This document shows, one piece after another, positions 9,287 to 34,409 of a stretch of 64,000 bases of DNA; position 1 is the stretch's first letter, and every line of letters begins with the position of its first letter. This DNA comes from Chlorobiaceae bacterium (GTDB lineage Bacteria; Bacteroidota; Chlorobiia; Chlorobiales; Chlorobiaceae). A model generated the notes under the pieces. That model was not told the origin of the DNA. It saw only the letters and a list, made by a program, of their open reading frames with translations, and ran no database searches. The translations under genes and the position numbers were made by a program. The DNA is taken from NCBI GenBank assembly GCA_013334225.1, contig JAAXXY010000013.1, forward strand, positions 1-64,000, given 5' to 3'.

Positions 9287-10645
9287 TCATTTCATGCCGT
9301 ATTTCTTCAGCTTGTACCGCAGGTGCCGCTCGCTGATGCCAAGCATCTCCGCTGCCCGTGTCTGCACATTGCCGGCCTCCTTCATGGCGCCGAGAATCAT
9401 CGCCTGCTCGTAGGCTTCGACCTTGTCGGTAAATGTACCCTGCCCCTCATCCGTTCCGGAACCTTCCGGAGGGGGTTCGGATACCCTGATGGGAAGATCG
9501 TCCCTGGTTATGGTCGAAGAACGGGAGAGCACAACGGACTGCTGCACGATATTTTCGAGTTCACGGACATTGCCCGGCCAGGAATATTTCATCAGGACAT
9601 CCATTGCCTCCCTTGAAATCCCGTTGATCTGCTTTCCGTTTTCTTCGCTGAACCGTCGAATAAACGTGTCTGCAAGCGGTGGTATATCGTCGCGGCGCTC
9701 CCGCAGCGGAGGAATCCGGATGGAGACAACATTGAGACGGTAATAGAGATCTGCCCGGAACAAACCCTCGCGAATCATCGCTTCCAGATCGCGGTTTGTC
9801 GCTGCAACGATCCTCACATCGGCTGCAAGAGGAATGGAACTGCCAACACGCTCGAATGTTTTTTCCTGCAACACCCTGAGCAGTTTTACCTGCAGGGATA
9901 GCGGTATTTCGCCGACTTCATCGATGAAGAGAGTGCCGCCCTGCACCATTTCGAAGCGTCCCCTCCGCAATCTTTCAGCTCCTGTGAAAGCACCTTTTTC
10001 ATGACCGAAAAGCTCGCTTTCAAGCAGGGTTTCAGGAAGTGCCGCACAATTGACCACAACAAAGGGTTTGTCACGACGGGAGCTGGAAAAATGGACTGCC
10101 TTCGCAACAAGCTCCTTGCCTGTTCCGGTTTCTCCGGTAATAAGCACCGCCGCATTGCTGGAAGCGACCCTTCCGGCGATATTCATCACCTGATCCATCG
10201 CGGAGGATTGCGAGATTATGCCCTGAAAACCGAACCGCTCAGAAAGCTGTGTTCGCAGAAGACGGTTTTCGCTGATGAGCTGCTTCCTCTCCAGGGTATT
10301 GCGGATCATGGTCTGAAGCTGGTGAAGATCGACTGGTTTGGTGATGTAATCAACCGCTCCGAGCTTCATGGCCTCGATAGCCGATTCCACACTTCCGTAG
10401 GCTGTCATGATGATAACCTCGATACCGGGATTACGGTGCTTCAATGCCGAAAGCAGTTCGACACCGCTCATCCCGGGCATTCTGAAATCGGAAAGCACGA
10501 TATCCAGCGCTTCCTCGCCTGCGATCTCAAGTGCTCTCTGAGGACGCGAAGCTTTCAGCACCCGGTAACCCTGTTTTGAGAGAAAACCCGCGATGCTCTC
10601 GAGCTGAATGCTTTCATCTTCTACGACAAGTATGGTACTGTCCAT
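9287..10645 (-). CDS. NtrC-family sigma-54-dependent response regulator
   Basis: This 452-residue protein has three domains. The receiver (1-120) has the phosphoacceptor D53 in VLSDFRMPGMSG. The AAA+ domain (about 140-370) has GETGTGKE (Walker A), the GAFTGA loop that contacts sigma-54, and the segment LFIDEVGEI. A Fis-type helix-turn-helix (about 415-452) ends with RAAEMLGISERHLRYKLKKYG. It lies 43 bp downstream of the histidine kinase gene on the same strand and is the last gene of an operon preceded by a sigma-54 promoter. It probably activates that promoter, giving positive feedback. The architecture is like ZraR/AtoC, and the target specificity is inferred from context only. Confidence 0.96.
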   Translation of the reverse strand: MDSTILVVEDESIQLESIAGFLSKQGYRVLKASRPQRALEIAGEEALDIVLSDFRMPGMSGVELLSALKHRNPGIEVIIMTAYGSVESAIEAMKLGAVDYITKPVDLHQLQTMIRNTLERKQLISENRLLRTQLSERFGFQGIISQSSAMDQVMNIAGRVASSNAAVLITGETGTGKELVAKAVHFSSSRRDKPFVVVNCAALPETLLESELFGHEKGAFTGAERLRRGRFEMVQGGTLFIDEVGEIPLSLQVKLLRVLQEKTFERVGSSIPLAADVRIVAATNRDLEAMIREGLFRADLYYRLNVVSIRIPPLRERRDDIPPLADTFIRRFSEENGKQINGISREAMDVLMKYSWPGNVRELENIVQQSVVLSRSSTITRDDLPIRVSEPPPEGSGTDEGQGTFTDKVEAYEQAMILGAMKEAGNVQTRAAEMLGISERHLRYKLKKYGMK

Positions 10646-10688: not shown

Positions 10689-12755
10689 TTATGCACAAGG
10701 CAGTACAATACTGAACACACTCCCCTCTCCTTCCCTGCTGGAAACCTCGATCATGCCCCCATGAGCATGGACAATCTGGTTCGCGATACTCAACCCCATT
10801 CCGGTTCCGTCATCTTTGGTGGTAAAATAAAGGTTGAATATTTCAGGCAGTTTCGCGACAGGAATTCCTGTGCCGGTATCGGCAATAGCTATGACAGCCT
10901 CGTTTGCACGGCAGTATACCCTGAGAGATATACTGCCACCTTTTGCTGTTGCTTCAACACCATTGCGGACGATGTTGAGCAGCACCTGCTGCATCTGCTC
11001 CCTGTCTATCAGTACCGTTCTTTGACACCCGGTCTGAATCGTAAACCTGATATCTTTTTTTTCAGCCTCGCTCTGCAGAACGGTTCCGTAACTCAAGATA
11101 TACTCATCGAGATTCACCGGTGCAGGCACAAGCTGCGGCGGCCGCCCGAATTTGAGAAACCGCTGGATAATCGTATTGACACGGTTTACCTCGGATACCA
11201 CGGTTCGAACCAGATGGCGGTATTCAGGTTCATCGGCAATCGGAGAGAATTCGATATCAAGACGTTGAGCCAATATGCCGATGGCGTTCAGCGGATTCCT
11301 GATCTCATGTGCCACACCCGAAGCCAGCTCTCCCATTGCCCGCAGTTTTTCCTGCCGGTCGATTACCTGCTGCATTGCCCTCTGCTCCGTCAGGTCGCGA
11401 AGTACGGCTACGGTTCCCTCGATACGATTTCCGCTTCCGGTTATGAGGCTGAAATTCCCTGCCAGCAAACGCTCTCTGCCGCCTGCGGAACAGAGAAATT
11501 CGCGATTGAGCATACCGCTCTCTCTTGCCGCCATGATGCCGGAGAGAAATTCCGGACATTCAGGGAAAACCAGCTGCACCGGTTTGCCGAGAGCTTCCTT
11601 CGAGGAGAGCTGAAAGAGCTTTTCCGCCGGTCTGTTGACCAGAGTCACGGCACTGTCGGCATCAACCGTAACGACCGCATCCGCCATGCTTTCAAGAATG
11701 GTTGATGAAAATGTCTGTACCCGCCGGTAAGCATCTTTCATTTCGGTTTCGTTTCTTCGGGCCATGACAAGGTTGAACATGACAAGCGCTCCGATAGCAA
11801 TAAGTCCGAGGAGCATTACAAAGCGGTTTCGCAGCTTCTCCAGTGCCGCGGTAAAATGATCTGCTTTCAGCCCGATACGTAAAAGCCCGATATTGGTCTT
11901 GTTGTCATAAAAGGGATTCACGACTTCGAAAACCTTTCTGCCGCCGAATTCGGTCATCCGGGTCAGCGGTATCTGCGTATGCATGGCCGATTCGAGAAAG
12001 GAGTCCTGCCGGACAACCGCGGCTTTCGAAATATTCGGCGTAGAGGCCAGAATCCGGGTTGTATCCTGCCAGATGATGTAATCGATGCCGGTCTTGTCTG
12101 CTCCTATGCGCTGAATGAGCTGTTCAACGCCAAGTTTCCGGCGCAGATCAATCAGCCCTGTCGCATCGACATTACCTGCAATGACACCGCCCCTGCTACG
12201 TCTGACGGCGGCAATCAGCCGCGGTCCCCGGCCGGAAGTGCTCTCTCTGATCCCGAGCATCAGGGAATCCTTCTCTCCGGATAAAACCGGCTGCAGGAAC
12301 ATCCTGTGATCGCACTCCCGTTCGAGAGGGGTATGATCGGGAGGCGAGCTGAAGGCTACACGCATTCCGCTGCGATCGAAGATATTGAGGCGATAAATGC
12401 CGCTTGATCCTGCAATGGTGGAAAGATCCGCTGAAGTCAGCTCATGCTGTCTGTCCAGACGGTCGATAAGACGAAGCTGATCGATAAGGCTTCCCGTAAG
12501 GAGAGCTTTGTTTTCATTGTAACCGGTGACGGCATTTTCAGCCCCTTCCCTCAGGGCATGCATGAGCAGGGCGGCCTCTTCACGCATGACATGTTCGATC
12601 TCGGATTTCCGGTAGTTATATTCGAAAATAGCCGTTCCAAGAAACAGGAGCACAAAAAGGGTAAACAGCCCCCCCAGATACTTTGGTGAGAGCATCATTA
12701 CCCTTTTTTCCTGAAGCTTCTCCTGTTTCATCTTTTTCAGAAATATTCCTTTCAC
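10689..12755 (-). CDS. Membrane sensor histidine kinase (PAS, HisKA, HATPase)
   Basis: This 688-residue protein has TM1 at about 27-46, a large periplasmic sensor (about 47-310) of Cache-like size and pattern, and TM2 at about 312-331. A PAS domain (about 350-455) follows. A HisKA box has the phosphorylated H483 in ASGVAHEIRNPLN, and a C-terminal ATPase domain carries DTGTGIP and GTGMGLSI. It pairs with the NtrC-type regulator immediately downstream and lies 26 bp after the DUF4405 gene. The external location of the sensor suggests it monitors the periplasm, where the operon's cytochrome c works. The ligand is unknown. The start is uncertain by up to about 20 residues because several Met codons lie at the N terminus. 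Confidence 0.93.
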   Translation of the reverse strand: MKGIFLKKMKQEKLQEKRVMMLSPKYLGGLFTLFVLLFLGTAIFEYNYRKSEIEHVMREEAALLMHALREGAENAVTGYNENKALLTGSLIDQLRLIDRLDRQHELTSADLSTIAGSSGIYRLNIFDRSGMRVAFSSPPDHTPLERECDHRMFLQPVLSGEKDSLMLGIRESTSGRGPRLIAAVRRSRGGVIAGNVDATGLIDLRRKLGVEQLIQRIGADKTGIDYIIWQDTTRILASTPNISKAAVVRQDSFLESAMHTQIPLTRMTEFGGRKVFEVVNPFYDNKTNIGLLRIGLKADHFTAALEKLRNRFVMLLGLIAIGALVMFNLVMARRNETEMKDAYRRVQTFSSTILESMADAVVTVDADSAVTLVNRPAEKLFQLSSKEALGKPVQLVFPECPEFLSGIMAARESGMLNREFLCSAGGRERLLAGNFSLITGSGNRIEGTVAVLRDLTEQRAMQQVIDRQEKLRAMGELASGVAHEIRNPLNAIGILAQRLDIEFSPIADEPEYRHLVRTVVSEVNRVNTIIQRFLKFGRPPQLVPAPVNLDEYILSYGTVLQSEAEKKDIRFTIQTGCQRTVLIDREQMQQVLLNIVRNGVEATAKGGSISLRVYCRANEAVIAIADTGTGIPVAKLPEIFNLYFTTKDDGTGMGLSIANQIVHAHGGMIEVSSREGEGSVFSIVLPCA

Positions 12756-12781: not shown

Positions 12782-13627
12782 TTACCGGCTTATCATGCTT
12801 TCGATCATCCGGCGCAGTTCGTTCATCTCGATATGGTTCTTTTCTGCTATCTCTTTCATGCTCATGCCGGTTTGGGCTTCAATACCTTTCTGGCCAAGCG
12901 CCAGCTGCAGGGAAACGGACGATATTCCGTTATCGTTGGCTATTTCCTCAAGGGTTTTACGGCCAAGCCCTTCGGACGGCAAATTCTTCGCACCTCTTTT
13001 TTCAGGAGCAATATATCTATAAACATTTTCTGCCGTTGTATGGTTCTTAACGGCTATATCGGCAAGGGTCTCCTGAACCGAAACCACAGTATATCCGGCT
13101 TTTTCGAGCTTCGCCTTCAGGACTTCGGCATCACCGCCCAGCCCCGGCTGCTGCGCGAGTTCGGCAAGCGTCATGGCCTCGGCATGAGGTATGGGGGGCT
13201 GCTTGTCCTGTTGCTCCCATGATGCGGAGATGCTGTTTCCGAAATCGATAACCGCTGAAAACGGCTGCAGGGAAAAATAGGTCCCGACCCCGAAAAACAG
13301 AGCAAGCGTAACGATGACGAACAGCTCGAACGGACTTTTCAACCCTGCGCTTGCCTTTGTTTTCAGATAGGAGAGAAATGCCTTCCAGTTGATGAAAAAA
13401 AGATGAAATATCGACAGGATCGCGAAACCGAAACCAAAAATCGTGTGCTGGTTGATCCACCCTCTTTTGGACAGACCGAGCATTCGCCAGTCCGTCCAGT
13501 TGGCCACCCTGCCGGGAGGAGAGATATAGAGTATCACGCCTGAAACAAGCAGCATCAGAAACGAAAGCAGCAGTCCGAAGCTGATGAATATCCGCCAGTT
13601 GAATGTTTTTTTCACTTTCAGCTCCAT
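12782..13627 (-). CDS. DUF4405 membrane protein with repeated C-terminal motif
   Basis: This 281-residue protein has three predicted membrane helices (about 11-35, 60-80 and 100-120) and H61 and H75 bracketing the second. DUF4405 belongs, to my knowledge, to the group of di-heme cytochrome b-like membrane domains, so b-heme binding is plausible. After the third helix, a polar region of about 150 residues contains four related segments (153-175, 187-206, 225-244, 257-276). Each follows the pattern T/S-L/M-x-E/D-I/L-A, then N-H/G, then a hydrophobic helix. The stop is one base before the cytochrome c stop region's partner: the gene starts 2 bp after the cytochrome c stop and shares its promoter. 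Its role is probably to pass electrons between the quinone pool and the periplasmic cytochrome. Confidence 0.8.
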   Translation of the reverse strand: MELKVKKTFNWRIFISFGLLLSFLMLLVSGVILYISPPGRVANWTDWRMLGLSKRGWINQHTIFGFGFAILSIFHLFFINWKAFLSYLKTKASAGLKSPFELFVIVTLALFFGVGTYFSLQPFSAVIDFGNSISASWEQQDKQPPIPHAEAMTLAELAQQPGLGGDAEVLKAKLEKAGYTVVSVQETLADIAVKNHTTAENVYRYIAPEKRGAKNLPSEGLGRKTLEEIANDNGISSVSLQLALGQKGIEAQTGMSMKEIAEKNHIEMNELRRMIESMISR

Positions 13628-13628
13628 G

Positions 13629-14066
13629 TTACTGGTTTATGCACTGTCCCTGCCCTCTGCCCATCCCCCATCCTCTTCCCATACCACGTCCTCTGCCCAT
13701 AGCCGGATTGTACTGCTCCCAGAACCACTCAGACACCGCCTTCAGTTCCGCATCAGGGAGGGTAAGAGCGGGCATGAGCCCGAACCGGGATACCGCCTGG
13801 GCATCGATGGCCTGGTTTTTATCGGGTTTTTTCAAATATGCCGCCATGTGGGCTACACCCTGCTCTTTGGTCGCAAATTTCTGATGGTAGCGGTTTGCCA
13901 GAGGAATGACCGGTGGTGCTGATTTCGGAGGCGGATAGATGGAATGGCAGACACTGCAATTCCTGGTAAAAACAGCTTCGCCATCCAGCGCTGCAGCCGA
14001 CATTACTGCCGGTAAAAACCCTGAAGCGATTCCGGATACCATACATGCATAGATGATCTTTTTCAT
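13629..14066 (-). CDS. Periplasmic c-type cytochrome with Gly/Met/Arg-rich tail
   Basis: This is a 145-residue protein if started at ATG 14066, which follows the ribosome binding site AGGGAG seven to eight bases upstream. A longer in-frame start at 14189 would add a stretch without a signal-like character and is unlikely. It has a signal peptide (residues 1-25), one haem site CSVCH (37-41), a probable axial Met at 98 (FGLMPAL) and a tail (122-141) built of repeated M-G-R-G units. It is a class I single-haem cytochrome c. It is the first gene of the operon with DUF4405, kinase and regulator. Such tails are unusual, and a role in metal or protein contact is only a guess. Confidence 0.92.
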   Translation of the reverse strand: MKKIIYACMVSGIASGFLPAVMSAAALDGEAVFTRNCSVCHSIYPPPKSAPPVIPLANRYHQKFATKEQGVAHMAAYLKKPDKNQAIDAQAVSRFGLMPALTLPDAELKAVSEWFWEQYNPAMGRGRGMGRGWGMGRGQGQCINQ

Positions 14067-14197
14067 AACAACACTCCCTTGTAATAATTTTTTCAGAATA
14101 ACTGGTATTCGTTGCATACAGAGCGTATCACTCGGAATCAAAACGGCACTCTGCCGTAAACCGCTCCGAAGGTTACAAGTGATACCCAATTAGTCAT

Positions 14198-14213
14198 AGC
14201 AAAAGACATGCCA
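14198..14213 (-). promoter_or_regulatory. Sigma-54 (-24/-12) promoter
   Basis: The minus strand reads TGGCATGTCTTTTGCT, matching the consensus TGGCACG-N4-TTGCT. It has GG and GC at the fixed spacing of 10 bases between them. It sits 132 bases upstream of the cytochrome c start codon and points toward it. The last gene of the same operon is an NtrC-family activator, which needs exactly this type of promoter. Confidence 0.88.
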
Positions 14214-14302: not shown

Positions 14303-14336
14303 CGACCGTATAGTCGAATATACGACCATTTGGTCG
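14303..14336. promoter_or_regulatory. Two palindromes, probable activator binding sites (UAS)
   Basis: CGACCGTATAGTCG (14303-14316) and CGACCATTTGGTCG (14323-14336) share the outer arms CGAC and GTCG, with six-base perfect arms in the second. Their centres are 20 bp apart, about two helical turns. They lie about 100 bases upstream of the -24/-12 promoter, the usual place for NtrC-type enhancers. The assignment is inferred from position and symmetry. Confidence 0.7.
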
Positions 14337-14470: not shown

Positions 14471-14501
14471 CACCGAAAGCCCCGGTTTGGGGCTTTCGGT
14501 G
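14471..14501 (-). terminator. Hairpin terminator of the VWA-protein gene
   Basis: Perfect 13-base arms CACCGAAAGCCCC and GGGGCTTTCGGTG flank GGTTT. On the minus strand they follow the VWA stop (14517) by 15 bases, and a short TTTATAA follows. The 450 bases 14067-14516 otherwise hold the regulatory region of the cytochrome operon. Confidence 0.8.
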
Positions 14502-14516
14502 CATCATTCATCAAAA

Positions 14517-15752
14517 TTATTTATATGTGAAGTGTTTCGTTCCGGCCTGTGTCCGCAACTGTTCAAGAATCGCCGACCCGAGGGTCTTGCGGCCCGCACT
14601 CTCCTGCTGCTTCTGCCGGATATAGGCGTCCCTCTTGCGGCCGAGCTCCGCAATCTGTGATTTCACCTCCTGGCGCTCCTTCTTTTTCTGTTCGACATAG
14701 GAGTGCAGCTGCCCTGAACTCATGCTGCGAAGCTCTTCGGGAAGTTCCGACCTGTCAAGCTTGTCAACGGAAACCCTTTTATCTTCGAGTGCATCGACAA
14801 GGTCCCAGTCCGACGACCTGTACAGGCTCGAACCTTTCGATGCGGACCTTGCCGCAGAAACAGGTGCAGCAAGTTTCGCGGCATTCACGTCCTGCTCAGC
14901 CTGACGAGCAAAGCTCGCTTTCCCGGACCGGCCATAAGGCACATAAGTGCTGTTTATCCGGCCGTTCAGCCTGATAAGGTCGTCGTCATAAGGAGTCGGC
15001 ATGTCGAAAGCCGACCTGTCGCTGTCGATGGAAAAGTAGCTGCCGCCGCCGAGGTCCGCACCCCGCTTCCAGAACGACATGATCCCGGACCAGTAATCTC
15101 CGCAATAGATCGTGTTGACCACGATATCCTTTTCGGCCGCCCACCTGCATGCGACCTCGTAATTGACCGATCCCTGGTTGAACGGCTCGTTGCCGGCGAT
15201 AAAGATCATTTTCAGCCCTTCTCCCGAACTGTTCCAATGCAGCTGGTTCAGGCTGCTGCCGATCACATGGCCGCAATACTCCTGCCCGCCATTGGTATCG
15301 AGCGAGAAAAGGGCTTCCGAGAGCAGATCGATGTTCTGCGTGAAGGGCACCACCTGCCGGATATACCCAGAAGTCGCAGTAAGATCGTTATTACCGTATT
15401 CAAAGAGCGCAACTTCGAGACGGATGTTTTCCCCGCGTTTATGCATCCTCGACAGTTCGTTCACGATCTGCCACAACTGGCTCTTCGCCTGGGTTATCAG
15501 GCCGTCCATACTGTTGCTTGTATCGAGCAGCAGGCAAAGCTGGATCAGTTTGTAATCATGCGGACATCTTGCTTCAACCGGTCTGAGGTTGTCAAACTGC
15601 CGCGCATAACCATCCATTGCTTTTCGAAGGGAGAGTGATTCCACCCTGTTTATCCCTGATTTATGTTCATCCCTCGGAGGCTTTGCTTCGAGCGATGTGA
15701 TTCCCGGTGTCGTACAAGCAACAAAAAGCAGCGGCAACAGTTGTATCTTCAT
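14517..15752 (-). CDS. Secreted VWA-domain protein
   Basis: This 411-residue protein has an N-terminal signal (about residues 1-22) with a cysteine at 13 in FVAC. The signal could be a type II site, although F at -3 is atypical. A von Willebrand A domain spans about 70-270. Its metal-ion site is D-T-S-N-S at 77-81, and a later strand reads MIFIAGNEPF. The C terminus (about 330-411) is a Lys/Glu/Gln-rich coiled coil. Such domains mediate protein contacts or metal-dependent adhesion in the periplasm or outer membrane. The gene stands alone and ends at a strong hairpin. I do not recognise a more specific family. Confidence 0.78.
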   Translation of the reverse strand: MKIQLLPLLFVACTTPGITSLEAKPPRDEHKSGINRVESLSLRKAMDGYARQFDNLRPVEARCPHDYKLIQLCLLLDTSNSMDGLITQAKSQLWQIVNELSRMHKRGENIRLEVALFEYGNNDLTATSGYIRQVVPFTQNIDLLSEALFSLDTNGGQEYCGHVIGSSLNQLHWNSSGEGLKMIFIAGNEPFNQGSVNYEVACRWAAEKDIVVNTIYCGDYWSGIMSFWKRGADLGGGSYFSIDSDRSAFDMPTPYDDDLIRLNGRINSTYVPYGRSGKASFARQAEQDVNAAKLAAPVSAARSASKGSSLYRSSDWDLVDALEDKRVSVDKLDRSELPEELRSMSSGQLHSYVEQKKKERQEVKSQIAELGRKRDAYIRQKQQESAGRKTLGSAILEQLRTQAGTKHFTYK

Positions 15753-18899: not shown

Positions 18900-19373
18900 T
18901 CAGGAAACCGAAAGCCACTCGTCCACAATCTCTTTAGCCGCAAGCACCGCTTCCGGAAGAAGCGCCGAAACTTCAGAACTCAGCCCGATACCAAGCTCGA
19001 GGTCTTTAGGAGGTATACCGATCAGGACAATTTCACGCGGCATGTTGCCTCGAAGTCTCGCAAGACCGATCAGTTCGCTGAACCCCATCTGATGGGAGGA
19101 CATCTTGCGGTGGATAAATCCAGGAAGCTCTTCGTTCCGGTAGACATAAACTTTACGGTCATAATCAAGAGGAATGAGAGCATCGAAAACAATGACGGCA
19201 TCCCCTGATTCAAGATAATCGAGCAGATAGATTCCCTGCGTTCCTCCGTCGATGCACTGGACGGAATCAGGATAATCACTCGACTCGAGGAAACTCTTCA
19301 CGGCTTCGACTCCGAACCCTTCGTCTCCGTACAGGACGTTTCCAAGACCTATAACATTGATTCGATCAAACAC
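18900..19373 (-). CDS. hyaD: Hydrogenase maturation protease (HyaD type)
   Basis: This 157-residue protein has the family N terminus VIGLGNVLYGDEGFGVEAV, which carries a nickel-sensing Glu (in DEGFG). The conserved F-D-A-L-I-P and S-S-H-Q-M-G-F-S-E-L follow, with the second ligand His. It removes the C-terminal peptide of the large subunit after nickel insertion; the large subunit here ends with a 15-residue extension after DPCLACASH. It lies downstream of the hydrogenase cytochrome gene, separated by a hairpin at 19407-19444. Confidence 0.93.
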   Translation of the reverse strand: MFDRINVIGLGNVLYGDEGFGVEAVKSFLESSDYPDSVQCIDGGTQGIYLLDYLESGDAVIVFDALIPLDYDRKVYVYRNEELPGFIHRKMSSHQMGFSELIGLARLRGNMPREIVLIGIPPKDLELGIGLSSEVSALLPEAVLAAKEIVDEWLSVS

Positions 19374-19406
19374 CTTGCTTCATTAATTTATTTTTGAACA
19401 ATACAA

Positions 19407-19444
19407 ATGCCCGCTGCAGGATGGGTTCACCCCGCAACGGGCAT
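19407..19444 (-). terminator. Hairpin between hyaC and hyaD
   Basis: Arms ATGCCCGCTGC and GCAACGGGCAT (one mismatch) enclose about 16 bases. The structure lies in the 107-bp gap after the cytochrome b stop. On the minus strand it is followed by TTTGTATTGTT, so it could attenuate transcription into hyaD or stabilise the upstream mRNA. Confidence 0.55.
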
Positions 19445-19480
19445 CGACTCAAGCTGAAAAAGCATTCAAATTCTGTTACC

Positions 19481-20164
19481 TCAGACAGGCTCCTCCTCAA
19501 CTTTATGCTTGTAACCGGTCACGATCGACGATGTCACACTGGTGCGGTCGACGATATCGTGACGGAAAACCGCATAAAGATGCATGATAAGATAAAACGG
19601 GAAAATCCATGCCATGAGATGGTGCGCGAAATGCAGGGTATAGCTGCCTCCGAATAAAGGCACGAGCCATCCGAACAACACCCCGGTGAAACCTCCCGGA
19701 TTGTTCTCGCCGTACATGGCGAGGCCTGTGAGTATCATGAAGCTCGACCCGCAGAAAATGAAAACAAAATGAGCCAGCGCAGCAACCGGGTTGTGGCCGA
19801 CATAGTTCGGTTCGTCGGAGCGAAGGAAAAGATAGGATTCCACCTGCTCCTTGAAAGGCCGGCCCCACCATGCTGGCGACCAGGGCCTGAATCCGCCGAA
19901 CCGTCCATACTTGTCATTGCCGAATATCGCCCAGTACATGCGGAACAGAAAGTTAGCGATGAAGATGAATGCAGCGGCGAAATGCACATAGCGCCACCAC
20001 GACATCTGTTTGTACCAGACCGCTTCACCGACAGGCGGATTCAAAAATGGTCCGGCAATGTATACGCCTGTCAGCAGAAGAAGCACTGTACAGATAGCGT
20101 TTATCCAGTGATAAAGCCTGACAGGCAACCTCCATACGTAGATTTCTTCAATTAATCTGCCCAT
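19481..20164 (-). CDS. hyaC: Hydrogenase b-type cytochrome subunit
   Basis: This 227-residue protein has four membrane helices. It opens with YVWRLPVRLYHWINAICTVLLL (helix 1 and first His), then a WWRYVHFAAAF helix, and two further helices with HFVFIFCGSSF and HFAHHLMAW. The histidines can bind two b haems. It anchors the hydrogenase to the membrane and passes electrons to the quinone pool. The start lies 12 bp after the large-subunit stop. It fits the HyaC/HupC family in length and motif order. Confidence 0.94.
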   Translation of the reverse strand: MGRLIEEIYVWRLPVRLYHWINAICTVLLLLTGVYIAGPFLNPPVGEAVWYKQMSWWRYVHFAAAFIFIANFLFRMYWAIFGNDKYGRFGGFRPWSPAWWGRPFKEQVESYLFLRSDEPNYVGHNPVAALAHFVFIFCGSSFMILTGLAMYGENNPGGFTGVLFGWLVPLFGGSYTLHFAHHLMAWIFPFYLIMHLYAVFRHDIVDRTSVTSSIVTGYKHKVEEEPV

Positions 20165-20176
20165 GGCTGACTCCGT

Positions 20177-21895
20177 TTAAACGATTTTAACCGTCGTTAT
20201 CTCCTTGCCGTTCACATCGAAAACGTGGGATGCGCAGGCAAGGCATGGATCGAAGGAATGCACTGTCCTGATGATCTCGAGCGGCTGCTCGGGATTATGC
20301 ATCGGTGTACCTTTCAGCGCAGCTTCGTAAGCACCTGAATTGCCGTTTCCGTCTCTCGGTGAGGCGTTCCAGGTCGAAGGCACGACAATCTGATACTCCT
20401 TGATCTTCTCGTTCTCGATATGGATCCAGTGACCAAGCGCACCTCTCGGGGCCTCGGTATATCCGAATCCCTTGCATTGTGCCGGCCAGGTCGAAGGGTC
20501 CCAGCGCTCACCGTTGAACGTGCGGTAATCACCTGCCTTGATGTTCGCGACAAGCTGATCGTAGTAATGACGCATGAAACCTGCTGTCTGCTTGCATTCG
20601 ATACCTCTTGCGGCCGTACGTCCGAGCGTCGAGAAAAGGGCTTCTGGGCCGACTTCGAGTTTTTTCAACACCAGACCGACAGTATCCTTGATCATCGGAT
20701 CACCTTTCGCATAGGCGACAAGCACACGGGCGAGTGGTCCGACCTCCATGGGGTTGTTTTTCCAGCGCGGTGTTTTCAGCCAGCTGTATTTCTTGTCGGT
20801 ATCGAGGTGCTCGAATGGCGGTTTCGGGCCTGTATAGCTCGGTTTTGTTTCACCCTGCCAGGGATGCAGCCCCTTGCTGTCTCCTTTCGAATAGGTGTAC
20901 CAGCTATGGCTGACCTCTTCGGTAACCTGAGAGGCATCTCTCGGATCGACATCGATCACTGTGGAAAGGTCCTTGTTCAGAATAGCACCTCTCGGCCATA
21001 GCAGAGACTTGAAATCGGAAAGGGTGGTTTCAGGGAAATCACCGTATGTGAGATAGTTGCCGAGACCACCGCCATAGAGCCATTCCTTGTAGAAGCCGGC
21101 GATGGCTATCAGGTCGGGAATGTAGACCTGGTCAATGAACGCAATGGTATCATCGATAATCTTCTTGATCATCGCCAGACGCTCGATATTGATCGCTGTA
21201 TCGCTGTTCGGATCGATAGCACAGGCCATTCCTCCGACCAGATAGTTCGGATGCGGGTTTTTACCGCCGAAAATGGTCTGGATCTTGATGATCTCCTTCT
21301 GGAAATCGAGCGCTTCGAGATAATGGGCAACGGCGATAAGGTTCACTTCCGGAGGAAGTTTGTATGCCGGATGACCCCAGTAACCGTTCGAGAAGATACC
21401 GAGCTGCCCGCTTTCGACAAACCCGACAAGCTTCTGCTGTAAATCCTTGAAGTAACCGACGGATGATTTAGGCCAGGAAGATATGCTTTGAGCAATTGCT
21501 GAAGCCTGTTTCGGATCGGCTTTCAGTGCGCTTACGACGTCAACCCAGTCAAGTGCATGAAGATGGTAGAAATGCACCAGATGGTCCTGGGTCTGCTGCG
21601 TTGCATTCATGAGGTTTCGGATAATGCGTGCATTCGGCGGTATGGTTATACCAAGCGCATCCTCGACACAACGGACGGAAGCAAGTGCATGCACCGTCGT
21701 ACAGACACCGCAGATGCGTTCGGCAAATGCCCAGGCATCCCTCGGGTCACGCCCTCTGAGAATGATTTCAATGCCGCGCCACATCGTGCCGCTGCTGAAT
21801 GCTTCTTCTATAACATTGCTGTCGTTCAGTTTCGCTTCGATCCTCAAATGTCCCTCGATACGGGGAATCGGATCTACAACAATTTTTTTTGCCAT
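20177..21895 (-). CDS. hyaB: Uptake NiFe hydrogenase large subunit
   Basis: This 572-residue protein has the N-terminal nickel site RICGVCTTVHALASVR (residues about 61-76) and the C-terminal site DPCLACASH, which together supply four Cys ligands for the Ni-Fe centre. Fifteen residues follow the last His and would be removed by HyaD. IPRIEGHLRIEA at the start is also typical. It oxidises hydrogen in the periplasm, carried out with the Tat-exported small subunit. It lies 14 bp downstream of hyaA and 12 bp upstream of hyaC. Confidence 0.96.
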   Translation of the reverse strand: MAKKIVVDPIPRIEGHLRIEAKLNDSNVIEEAFSSGTMWRGIEIILRGRDPRDAWAFAERICGVCTTVHALASVRCVEDALGITIPPNARIIRNLMNATQQTQDHLVHFYHLHALDWVDVVSALKADPKQASAIAQSISSWPKSSVGYFKDLQQKLVGFVESGQLGIFSNGYWGHPAYKLPPEVNLIAVAHYLEALDFQKEIIKIQTIFGGKNPHPNYLVGGMACAIDPNSDTAINIERLAMIKKIIDDTIAFIDQVYIPDLIAIAGFYKEWLYGGGLGNYLTYGDFPETTLSDFKSLLWPRGAILNKDLSTVIDVDPRDASQVTEEVSHSWYTYSKGDSKGLHPWQGETKPSYTGPKPPFEHLDTDKKYSWLKTPRWKNNPMEVGPLARVLVAYAKGDPMIKDTVGLVLKKLEVGPEALFSTLGRTAARGIECKQTAGFMRHYYDQLVANIKAGDYRTFNGERWDPSTWPAQCKGFGYTEAPRGALGHWIHIENEKIKEYQIVVPSTWNASPRDGNGNSGAYEAALKGTPMHNPEQPLEIIRTVHSFDPCLACASHVFDVNGKEITTVKIV

Positions 21896-21909
21896 GAGCT
21901 CACTCCCGG

Positions 21910-22995
21910 TTATGCTTTATCTTTTTCATGCTTGTCTTCTTGCGTCTTTTTAACTGCAGTTACAGCTGCATGTGCAGCGGCACCGGCAGCAGCGGCACCC
22001 AAAGCGATCATACCGATCCTGTCGGCATTACTGTCGCTTCCAAGGAAAGGAACCTCAGCCAGCCTCTTGTAGAACGGTCCCCTGTCCCAGAAATTCGGCT
22101 CGGAGCAGCCGATGCACGGATGGCCGGAACCGATCGGGAAGCTTGTACCTTCGTTCCATTGGATCTTCGAGCAGGAGTTATAGGTGGTCGGGCCTTTGCA
22201 ACCCATTTTGTACAGGCACCACCCCTTTCTTGTGGCCTCATCGTCGAAGCTCCTGACAAACATGCCCGCATCGAAGAATGCACGCCTGTAGCATTTATCA
22301 TGGATTCTGGTGTTGTAGAAAGCTTTCGGACGACCGAAACGGTCAAGATCAGGCAGGGTACCGAAGGTATGGAAATGCGTAATGACACCGGTCATGACCT
22401 CTGAAATCGGTGGACATCCCGGAACTTTCACGATCGGCTTGTCCTTGATGACTTCATCGATCGGTTTCGCTCCGGAAGGGTTGGGTTCGGCATTCTGAAC
22501 GCAACCGAACGAAGCGCATGCGCCCCATGCAATGATTGCGGCGCAATCGGCTGCAGTCTCCTTTATGATGTTCAGGAAAGAGTCGCCGCCGACCATGCAG
22601 TAGACACCGTCATCCTTTGTCGATACATTACCTTCTACGGCAAGAATGTACTTCCCCTTGTACTCTTTCATGATTTTCCTGCGTACGGCTTCGAGCTGGT
22701 GACCGGCAGCAGCGCTGAGCACATCATCGTAATCAAGGGAAATCATGTTGAAAAGGAGATCTTCGATTCTCGGGTGGGAAGAGCGGATGAAGGATTCCGA
22801 ACAACAGGTACATTCCTGACCGTGGAGCCATAATACGGGTGTTCTCGTCTTTTTTTCCATGGCATGCACAATGCTGGGAACCATCGATGGTGAAAGGCCG
22901 AGATAAACCGAGGTAAGGGAACAGAACTTGAGAAAATCCCTGCGGCTTACTCCCCTGGCCCTGAACAAATCGGCAAAGGTCTGGTTACTTTGCAT
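21910..22995 (-). CDS. hyaA: Uptake NiFe hydrogenase small subunit
   Basis: This 361-residue protein has a Tat signal with SRRDFLK (17-23), cut after about residue 45. Iron-sulphur ligands include C62, C64 and C65 in E-C-T-C-C-S-E-S, and C160 and C165 in W-G-A-C-A-S-F-G-C. Counting from the cut site gives 17, 19, 20, 115 and 120, the numbering of E. coli HyaA. The two extra cysteines (19 and 120) are those of oxygen-tolerant enzymes with a [4Fe-3S] proximal cluster. A hydrophobic C-terminal helix and a Lys/Glu tail anchor it. GGAGG lies five bases before the ATG. Confidence 0.96.
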
Positions 22996-26536: not shown

Positions 26537-28828
26537 TTAGTAGATCAGTTTTGTAAAGTAGTAGATAAAATATCCGACCACGGCAAAAAGAGCCAGAACG
26601 ACGTAGGTCTGTACTTTTCCTGTCTGGAATTTTCTCAGGATGCCGCCGGTAGTGTTCACAACAAATGCCGTGAAGTTAACCAGTCCGTCTACAACATATT
26701 TATCGAAGCTTCCGTTGGCAAAAGCGAAATTCCTTGTTGTGATGGCTACTCCGTTCACGATGCCATCGACAATCTTCGCGTCGAACCAGGAAAGAGCTTT
26801 GGATAGCAGTATGGAGAACCTGATGACGGTAGCCTCGTACATTTCATCCCAGTACCACTTGTTGTATGAGAAGAGGTAGAGCGGACGAATGGCTGCTGCA
26901 GTCCTGTCCGGATCGATGATCCTGAATGCAAAGACGACAAGGGCCATGCTGATACCGATCACCACCATAATGCTCGATATGATGATAGCGGTGTAATGGG
27001 CCGCATGTGAACCGTGAGCAAGTTCCGCCTGCCGTTCATCGGTGAATACCGGTCCTTCTCCATGATTTCCGGCAGCGGCATGTGCCGTTTCCGTGTTTGC
27101 ATGCGAAGCATCTGTCATGGCATGGGATGCTTCAGGCTGAACAGCTTCGGCCATCAATGCAGTTTCCGCTGTAACCATTGCCTTCGGATGTTCCGATACA
27201 TAACGGCCAACGACGGTCTGCGGGGTCTGCACCATGTGCATGAACCAGCCCTTGGCGCCATCGAGCGGATCGGGCGAGAAAACGAAGAATACCGAAAGTG
27301 AAGCAAGGATAACGAGCGGGGCCCTCATGTTCCAGGCAACTTCATGGACACCATGATGCTCGTCGTGCGCATCGTGGTTGTCATGGCCGTGATGAGCACC
27401 ATGAGCGGCATGGGCATCATGCCCGTGATGCTCTTCCGCTGGTTTCAGATGGGTACGGCTTTCACCGAAGAAAACGAGCCAGATCTGGCGTCCCATGTAA
27501 AAAGCGGTAAGCATGGCCGAGAAAAAGCCGAGAACCGGAATGATATAGTAAATACCCCCGCCTTCAACCTTTGCAAAGCCGATCGCGCTGGCGAGGATTG
27601 CGTCTTTGCTCATGAAGCCGCTCGTGAGTGGAAGTCCTGCAAGGGCGAGCGTAGCGAAAGTGAAAGTAGCGAATGTCCATGGCATGTGTTTTCTCAGGCC
27701 GCCCATCCAGCGCATATCCTGCTCATGGTGCATTGCATGGATGATCGCACCGGAACCGAGAAAGAGGCAAGCCTTGAAAAACGCGTGCGTAAGGAGATGG
27801 AAGAGCGCGGCAGAGTATGCGCCGACACCGAGGCCGAGCACCATGTAGCCGAGCTGTGAAACCGTAGAGTATGCCAGAACCCTCTTGATATCGTTCTGGG
27901 TGATCGCGATGGTGGCAGCCATGAAGGCGGTGAGCGCGCCGCAGAAAGCGATCACGTGCAGCGCGTCCGGTGTGAGAAGCGCGAAGATTCTTGCAACGAA
28001 ATATACTCCTGCGGCAACCATGGTAGCTGCATGGATAAGTGCCGATACGGGTGTCGGACCTTCCATGGCGTCAGGAAGCCAGATATGCAGCGGGATCTGT
28101 GCGGATTTACCGACACAACCCATGAAGAGCAATACGCCTGCAGCGGTGAGCCATGCATTTGACATGGTGAATTTGCCGGCTGCGAGGTTATCGAATATTT
28201 CCTGGTATCCGAATGTATGGAACTGCGAATAAAGGATCAGGATACCGAGCCACATTCCGATATCGCCCACGCGGTTCGCAAGAAACGCTTTTTTCTGTGC
28301 ATCTGCAGCGCTCTGCTTTTCGAAAAAGAACCCGATCAGCAGATAGGAGGAAAGACCGACAAGCTCCCAGAACATGTAGATCGAGAAGAGATTGTCCGAA
28401 AGCACGATACCGAGCATCGAGAACGTGAAAATTCCGAGATAGGCAAAAAAACGCCCATAATGCTTGTCGCCTGCCATATATCCTGTCGAGTAGAGGTGCA
28501 CGAGCAGGCTTATGAGCGTTACCATAGCGAGCATGATGACCGTCAGATTGTCGATCATGATGCCCATTCTGATTTTCAGCGGTCCGACATTGGGCACATT
28601 TCCGAGATCAATCCAGATGAAATCCCATGCAAGTTTGAATGCCGGATCGTAAGTCTGTACAATAACCGTCCAGAACATGTAGAGGGATATTGCAAATGCA
28701 GTGCCAAGTATTCCCACCCCCACGAAATCGCCTCTTCTCGGAAGCCGGCGGTTGAAGAAAATAAGAATGATGAAAGAGAGCAGCGGCAGCAGCAGTACGA
28801 CTATTGATAACTGAATTAAACTGTGCAT
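26537..28828 (-). CDS. nuoL: NADH-quinone oxidoreductase subunit L, enlarged
   Basis: This 763-residue protein is about 150 residues longer than the usual NuoL. Core motifs are present: YMFWELVGLSSYLL (Glu in helix 5), KSAQIPLHIWLPDAMEGPTPVSALIHA and KRVLAYSTVSQLGYM. The extra length is mainly in the C-terminal half. Residues 467-495 form a His-rich loop with 13 His in 29 positions, and residues 569-609 form a second His/Ala-rich loop. The end carries the long lateral helix and a final TM. It is the first of the three antiporter subunits, 54 bp after nuoK. Confidence 0.96.
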   Translation of the reverse strand: MHSLIQLSIVVLLLPLLSFIILIFFNRRLPRRGDFVGVGILGTAFAISLYMFWTVIVQTYDPAFKLAWDFIWIDLGNVPNVGPLKIRMGIMIDNLTVIMLAMVTLISLLVHLYSTGYMAGDKHYGRFFAYLGIFTFSMLGIVLSDNLFSIYMFWELVGLSSYLLIGFFFEKQSAADAQKKAFLANRVGDIGMWLGILILYSQFHTFGYQEIFDNLAAGKFTMSNAWLTAAGVLLFMGCVGKSAQIPLHIWLPDAMEGPTPVSALIHAATMVAAGVYFVARIFALLTPDALHVIAFCGALTAFMAATIAITQNDIKRVLAYSTVSQLGYMVLGLGVGAYSAALFHLLTHAFFKACLFLGSGAIIHAMHHEQDMRWMGGLRKHMPWTFATFTFATLALAGLPLTSGFMSKDAILASAIGFAKVEGGGIYYIIPVLGFFSAMLTAFYMGRQIWLVFFGESRTHLKPAEEHHGHDAHAAHGAHHGHDNHDAHDEHHGVHEVAWNMRAPLVILASLSVFFVFSPDPLDGAKGWFMHMVQTPQTVVGRYVSEHPKAMVTAETALMAEAVQPEASHAMTDASHANTETAHAAAGNHGEGPVFTDERQAELAHGSHAAHYTAIIISSIMVVIGISMALVVFAFRIIDPDRTAAAIRPLYLFSYNKWYWDEMYEATVIRFSILLSKALSWFDAKIVDGIVNGVAITTRNFAFANGSFDKYVVDGLVNFTAFVVNTTGGILRKFQTGKVQTYVVLALFAVVGYFIYYFTKLIY

Positions 28829-33977: not shown

Positions 33978-34409
33978 TTAGTCCCCGATTTTCCGGGATG
34001 TTTCCGACGGCATCTCAGGCATCTTCGGAATATTGGGAGTCGGCCTTACCCAGTCGAGATCACCCTTGACCCAGGCATAGACAAGCCCGAGAATAAGGAT
34101 ACCTGCAAATACAAGAGCTTCTATAAGGGCAAACTGACCGAGTTGCTTGAACACCGTAGCCCAGGGAAAAAGAAAGACAACTTCGACATCGAAAATGATG
34201 AAAATCAGCGCAACAACGTAAAACCTGATATTGAACTTCACCCATGCGCTTCCCACGGCGGTTTCACCGCATTCGTAAGTCGAATTTTTTTCAGGATTAG
34301 GTCTGTTGGGGCGCAGAAGACGGGCGGTCAGAAAACCTCCTGCTACGAATACGATACCGAGAAGGAGGAAAGCAAAAACATTGCCAAAATTACTTAAGGT
34401 TTGATCCAT
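33978..34409 (-). CDS. nuoA: NADH-quinone oxidoreductase subunit A
   Basis: This 143-residue protein has three membrane helices and the family signature [40 protein letters not shown]. The conserved Cys and Asp/Glu residues lie at the quinone chamber. It is the first gene of the eleven-gene operon. The upstream 213 bases to 34622 should hold the operon promoter, but I cannot assign one with confidence. Confidence 0.97.

Follow-up and report, generated by a model that had tools for sequence, protein, structure and literature searches.

In the ZraSR-ZraP envelope response of E. coli and Salmonella, a sigma-54 activator and a periplasm-sensing kinase switch on the operon that encodes them, together with a small periplasmic protein. 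In the PrsK/PrsR system of PEP-CTERM proteins, the distribution of an activator and its kinase matches that of a two-part upstream motif which, together with a -24/-12 element, lies before many secreted-protein genes (PMC1569441). As for cytochromes, other DUF4405 proteins bind haem b and have been tied to extracytosolic electron transfer and to ferrosomes (PMC11334425). The locus described here lies in a 64,000-nt window (the whole stretch of Chlorobiaceae DNA analysed), where four genes run head to tail in the order cytochrome c, DUF4405 cytochrome b-like protein, sensor kinase and NtrC-type activator (Table 1). The find is best read as a positively autoregulated sigma-54 two-component regulon, and TGGCATGTCTTTTGCT is very probably the enhancer-dependent sigma-54 promoter of the positively autoregulated two-component operon.

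With PrsK/PrsR, the locus shares an NtrC-type activator and kinase, the matching distribution of an upstream motif, and secreted-protein targets, whereas the palindrome is a different one and the targets are cytochromes and EF-hand-like proteins. No PEP-CTERM targets were seen among the Chlorobium regulon promoters, and the scores against the PrsR and PrsK models (TIGR02915/TIGR02916) reached 411.6 and 94.5, below the cut-offs of 502.6 and 300. The likeness to ZraSR lies in the sigma-54 activator, the periplasm-sensing kinase, the control of its own operon and a small secreted or periplasmic protein; however, no ZraP homologue was recognised, the targets here include cytochromes, and the ZraR and ZraS equivalog scores (438 and 193) fall short of 760 and 479. 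The AtoSC and NtrC families have the same domain architecture and gave the best NCBIfam scores for both activator and kinase, but their targets differ; the AtoC and AtoS scores were 527.6 (cut-off 714) and 299 (cut-off 646), and both proteins lie below all NCBIfam equivalog cut-offs. Finally, the membrane cytochrome shares the DUF4405 Pfam domain and invariant His residues with the DUF4405 cytochromes already described (PMC11334425), and differs from them in its additional C-terminal repeats, its pairing with a monohaem cytochrome c and its sigma-54 regulator; no apbE gene was noticed next to it.

Table 1. Features of the operon and its promoter region, in window coordinates.
Feature	Position	Strand	Basis or remark
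13-bp perfect hairpin CACCGAAAGCCCC-AAACC-GGGGCTTTCGGTG	14471..14501	-	After the upstream VWA-like gene; direct sequence reading
Palindrome 1 CGACCAAATGGTCG	14323..14336	-	Probably bound by the activator; 123 bp upstream of -24; kept in relatives
Palindrome 2 CGACTATACGGTCG	14303..14316	-	20 bp from palindrome 1; kept in relatives
-24/-12 core promoter TGGCATGTCTTTTGCT	14198..14213	-	Sequence reading; kept in promoter alignment of relatives
Periplasmic monohaem cytochrome c	13629..14066	-	Pfam Cytochrom_C and alignment
DUF4405 transmembrane cytochrome b-like protein	12782..13627	-	Pfam PF14358 and alignment
Sensor histidine kinase	10689..12755	-	Periplasmic double-Cache, PAS, HisKA, HATPase; Pfam, AlphaFold, Foldseek
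NtrC-type response regulator/sigma-54 activator	9287..10645	-	REC, AAA+, Fis HTH; Pfam, translation

In the alignment, the cytochrome c carries CSVCH and an invariant GLMP methionine, with a Gly/Met-rich tail in some members. The DUF4405 protein scores 59.2 against PF14358 (cut-off 26.7), has invariant His61 and His75 and ends in an extramembrane repeat region; it is 92% identical to that of Chlorobium sp. L304-S-6D, the closest named relative, which bears out an origin from green sulfur bacteria. Searching solved structures with the kinase sensor sequence gave no useful match, and an AlphaFold model (mean pLDDT 74) with a Foldseek match to dCache sensors suggests a double-Cache periplasmic domain. 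The activator has the domains of the NtrC family, including GAFTGA in its AAA+ sigma-54 interaction domain, and its closest solved relatives belong to that family; it is presumed to be the cognate activator of the operon promoter. The genome encodes a single sigma-54 factor, rpoN (E 7.4e-54), and further sigma-54 activators, among them a 43% paralog of the one in the operon. Near the operon, the window also holds a [NiFe] hydrogenase cluster (18900-22995) comprising small and large subunits, cytochrome b561 and a maturation protease.

For the 44 promoters of the regulon, the gene that follows encodes a small secreted EF-hand-like protein in at least 34 cases and the cytochrome c of this operon in at least 8; automatic first-ORF assignment missed one target of each type (L050 and L096). 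The small proteins carry the motif FVDxNGDGxND...DGDGIPNG..DPDYVRPQDGTG followed by Gly/Thr-rich tails, and no Pfam or NCBIfam model matched the family (L044, L046, L052, L053 and others). A search of the window genome itself found no such protein, so that only the autoregulated cytochrome operon can be recognised as its regulon. Relatives encode, between the small-protein and cytochrome genes, a conserved protein some 380 aa long that appears outer-membrane-barrel-like by eye (L053:8879-10015, L044:5545-6711) and has no Pfam match. Furthermore, a Bacteroidetes MAG (L181:1382-6391) has in a row a kinase, an activator (54%), TGGCACG-N4-TTGA, a small DGTG protein and DUF4405, and barrel-like ORFs follow beyond these. 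The module may accordingly extend beyond the green sulfur bacteria.

The physiological output can be proposed only weakly. It may consist in passing electrons between the quinone pool of the membrane and the periplasm, linked to a cue from the envelope or from a metal, although the balance leans against this reading; a quinone-to-periplasm route is made plausible by the haem b binding and extracytosolic electron transfer of other DUF4405 proteins (PMC11334425). In Chlorobaculum and Chlorobium sp. N1 (L171:4414-6843, L168:4375-6822), the DUF4405 gene lies beside an ECF sigma-factor-like gene, without the sigma-54 system, and the Chlorobaculum locus also reads as encoding a CpxP-like protein. 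These ECF and CpxP-like neighbours in Chlorobaculum hint at the envelope or metal cue. A role of the regulon in extracellular electron transfer, Fe(II)-dependent or other, that is related to photoferrotrophy, instead of in a general envelope or metal response, is possible but unlikely. The DUF4405 gene set does occur in Chlorobium ferrooxidans, Chlorobium sp. N1 and Boreal lake MAGs, its partner is outer-membrane-barrel-like, and the ties of haem b-binding DUF4405 proteins to extracytosolic electron transfer and ferrosomes (PMC11334425) would suit such a role; however, the set is also found in many other lake MAGs, and DUF4405 in Chlorobium sp. N1 and Chlorobaculum stands next to the ECF gene with no sigma-54 regulator. 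The contig piece examined from C. ferrooxidans DSM 13031 carries the cytochrome pair, and no activator ortholog was seen on it.

The regulatory argument depends on what lies upstream of the core element. The palindromes form a tandem pair of the pattern CGAC-N6-GTCG, the first of which begins exactly 123 bp upstream of the -24 element; the exact tandem occurs once in the genome, and a control pattern not at all. Such a pair is typical of activator sites and is probably the site of the in-operon activator. The locus combines an upstream activator site, assigned from its conservation, with a sigma-54 activator. Elsewhere in the intergenic stretch, the hairpin at 14501-14471 likely ends the transcript of the preceding VWA-like gene; it has a weak T tail, and a terminator scan did not return it. 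Another hairpin, in the leader at 14157-14143, was rejected, being neither enriched in the scan nor conserved in the nearest relative.

Across 86 genomes of the family, searched for the exact palindrome pair and for an activator ortholog, the pair was found in 31 and the ortholog in 39, with an overlap of 30 (Fisher p about 4e-14). The lone genome with palindromes and no activator (G083) is a fragmented assembly in which a cytochrome c homologue sits beside the site, and most of those fetched among the nine genomes with an ortholog and no exact pair contain a pair with one or two mismatches. A TGGY-N7-TTGN element lies 109-132 bp downstream of 31 of the 32 distinct exact sites, against a shuffle mean of 0.28 and a maximum of 3 in 2000 shuffles; at the remaining site, a near match, TGGAATGATTCTTGCA, can be read at the usual place. 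The distances fall into clusters of 109-113, 120-124 and 132 bp, peaking at 123, with steps of about one helical turn. Eight genomes share the gene order of the window (G071, G077, G065, G076, G097, G001, G074 and G079); in this clade the promoter region as a whole shows little conservation (mean identity 55%), and the few invariant blocks include the palindrome half-sites, TGGCA and TTG. The kinase and activator genes lead in most of the remaining Chlorobium relatives, and the palindromes and -24/-12 element follow directly after the activator. Next come genes for small secreted EF-hand-like proteins, in many cases one for an outer-membrane-barrel-like protein, and finally cytochrome c and DUF4405. 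A scan limited to the 500 bp before the cytochrome c and kinase genes of relatives did not pick up the promoter, because most relatives carry it after the activator and before the small-protein genes. The presence, order, conservation, spacing and co-occurrence of the parts are direct observations.

Since most palindrome sites adjoin the activator gene, the co-occurrence could partly reflect joint inheritance of a single island. Several sites are nevertheless distant from that gene, at 55 kb in G018, at 760 kb in G064 and on another contig in G024, and those of G018 and G024 keep the promoter architecture on reading of the sequence; moreover, cytochrome c-DUF4405 pairs of relatives that have no kinase-activator genes nearby have no palindrome pair either. 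Distant sites and palindrome-free cytochrome pairs together argue against island inheritance as the whole story. A rival proposal is that the promoter is a true sigma-54 promoter but that some other protein, either a repressor or a second sigma-54 activator, occupies the palindromes, and the in-operon activator acts elsewhere. The genome does encode a paralogous activator, and a dimeric repressor could equally well recognise palindromes of such a size, but the palindromes track the activator ortholog across the 86 genomes, their fixed phase to the -24 element fits an activator, and they are missing from cytochrome loci with no activator nearby; the proposal is therefore improbable.

The core element itself had been put forward in a preliminary description as a near-perfect -24/-12 match with GG/GC spacing on the minus strand, and it reads exactly so: GG stands at 14212/14211 and GC at 14200/14199, at canonical spacing within TGGCAY-N5-TTGCW. 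It is intergenic, between the VWA-like gene (14517-15752) and the cytochrome c ATG at 14066, and its position upstream of that ATG holds, with a gap of 131 nt in place of the 132 first given. Scans with the strict consensus TGGCAYN5TTGCW found two matches in the window, TGGCATGTCTTTTGCT and one at 28691, against 0.12 expected by chance. The latter, along with a one-mismatch candidate at 34371, was rejected as a promoter, both being chance matches inside NADH-dehydrogenase (nuo) genes. In the whole genome there are seven strict matches, compared with three for the reversed control pattern; one of them is the nifH promoter, 104 bp before nifH, recovered as a positive control. Two further strict matches are L001 (G000:C13:5266) and L006 (G000:C31:70286), of which one precedes a gene that reads as PAS-domain-like and one is apparently intergenic. 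On its own, the bare -24/-12 motif would be suggestive and only modest evidence; what raises TGGCATGTCTTTTGCT far above chance is the presence of the two tandem palindromes at a constant spacing, and their conservation. That a housekeeping promoter reads the operon and the -24/-12 match is accidental is extremely improbable: the strict motif does occur inside nuo genes of the window too, but sigma-70-like matches around the operon promoter are no more numerous than in shuffles, only 4e-4 strict matches are expected on the right strand of this intergenic stretch, and motif, palindromes and spacing are all conserved. Sigma-54 control of the cytochrome c operon, as originally suggested, is strongly supported by the single rpoN, the in-operon activator, the palindromes and the conserved geometry.

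The base that follows TTG deserves separate attention. In the 44 regulon promoters it is A in 30, C in 11 and T in 3 (TTGA examples are L047:12051, L048:11429 and L053:7863), whereas C was found in all 14 nifH promoters of relatives that were checked (Fisher p 4e-7, uncorrected for shared ancestry). The window promoter reads the canonical TTGC. Natural variation at -12 has also been noted for Bradyrhizobium (PMC3162934). Tentatively, and with somewhat less than even confidence, we propose that one sigma-54 activator governs the cytochromes and a new secreted EF-hand-like DGTG family in Chlorobium, and that GA, mostly replacing GC at -12, has been selected, for instance because the closed complex would then be weaker and suited to this activator.

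In the proposed mechanism, sigma-54 RNA polymerase would first occupy 14213-14198 as a closed complex. A periplasmic signal would then act through the double-Cache kinase, which, judging from its domains, would phosphorylate the operon's own NtrC-type activator. Co-occurrence and fixed geometry suggest that this activator binds both palindromes (14336-14303), whereupon its GAFTGA loop and ATPase would open the promoter, with transcription expected to start near 14187. Cytochrome c, DUF4405 cytochrome b, kinase and activator would all be raised, and in relatives the same activator would drive the small EF-hand-like proteins, the outer-membrane-barrel-like protein and the same cytochrome pair. 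Palindrome binding by the cognate activator, phosphorylation, dependence on sigma-54 (rpoN) and autoregulation are accordingly predictions drawn from sequence. Counting against this best reading is the A at -12 in most relatives, which is weaker than the textbook GC. In addition, cross-activation by other sigma-54 activators is possible, given the 43% paralog in the genome.

The kinase, the activator, the palindromes and the regulon are additions to the preliminary description, which had held sigma-54 promoters of small cytochromes to be undescribed in green sulfur bacteria. This agrees with the open-access papers searched, in which neither a report of a Chlorobium sigma-54 cytochrome nor a description of the regulon was found.

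Altogether, few regulatory circuits have been mapped in green sulfur bacteria, and the present locus offers a complete and testable one, with sensor, activator, site, core promoter and targets, which recurs in roughly half of the examined Chlorobium genomes. A DUF4405-cytochrome c pair that is so far uncharacterised and a new family of secreted proteins are thereby linked to a single signal, and the promoters that naturally read A at -12 could be used to probe sigma-54 recognition. In the organism, the two electron-transfer cytochromes should be switched on solely in response to triggering of the sensor and activator that the operon encodes.
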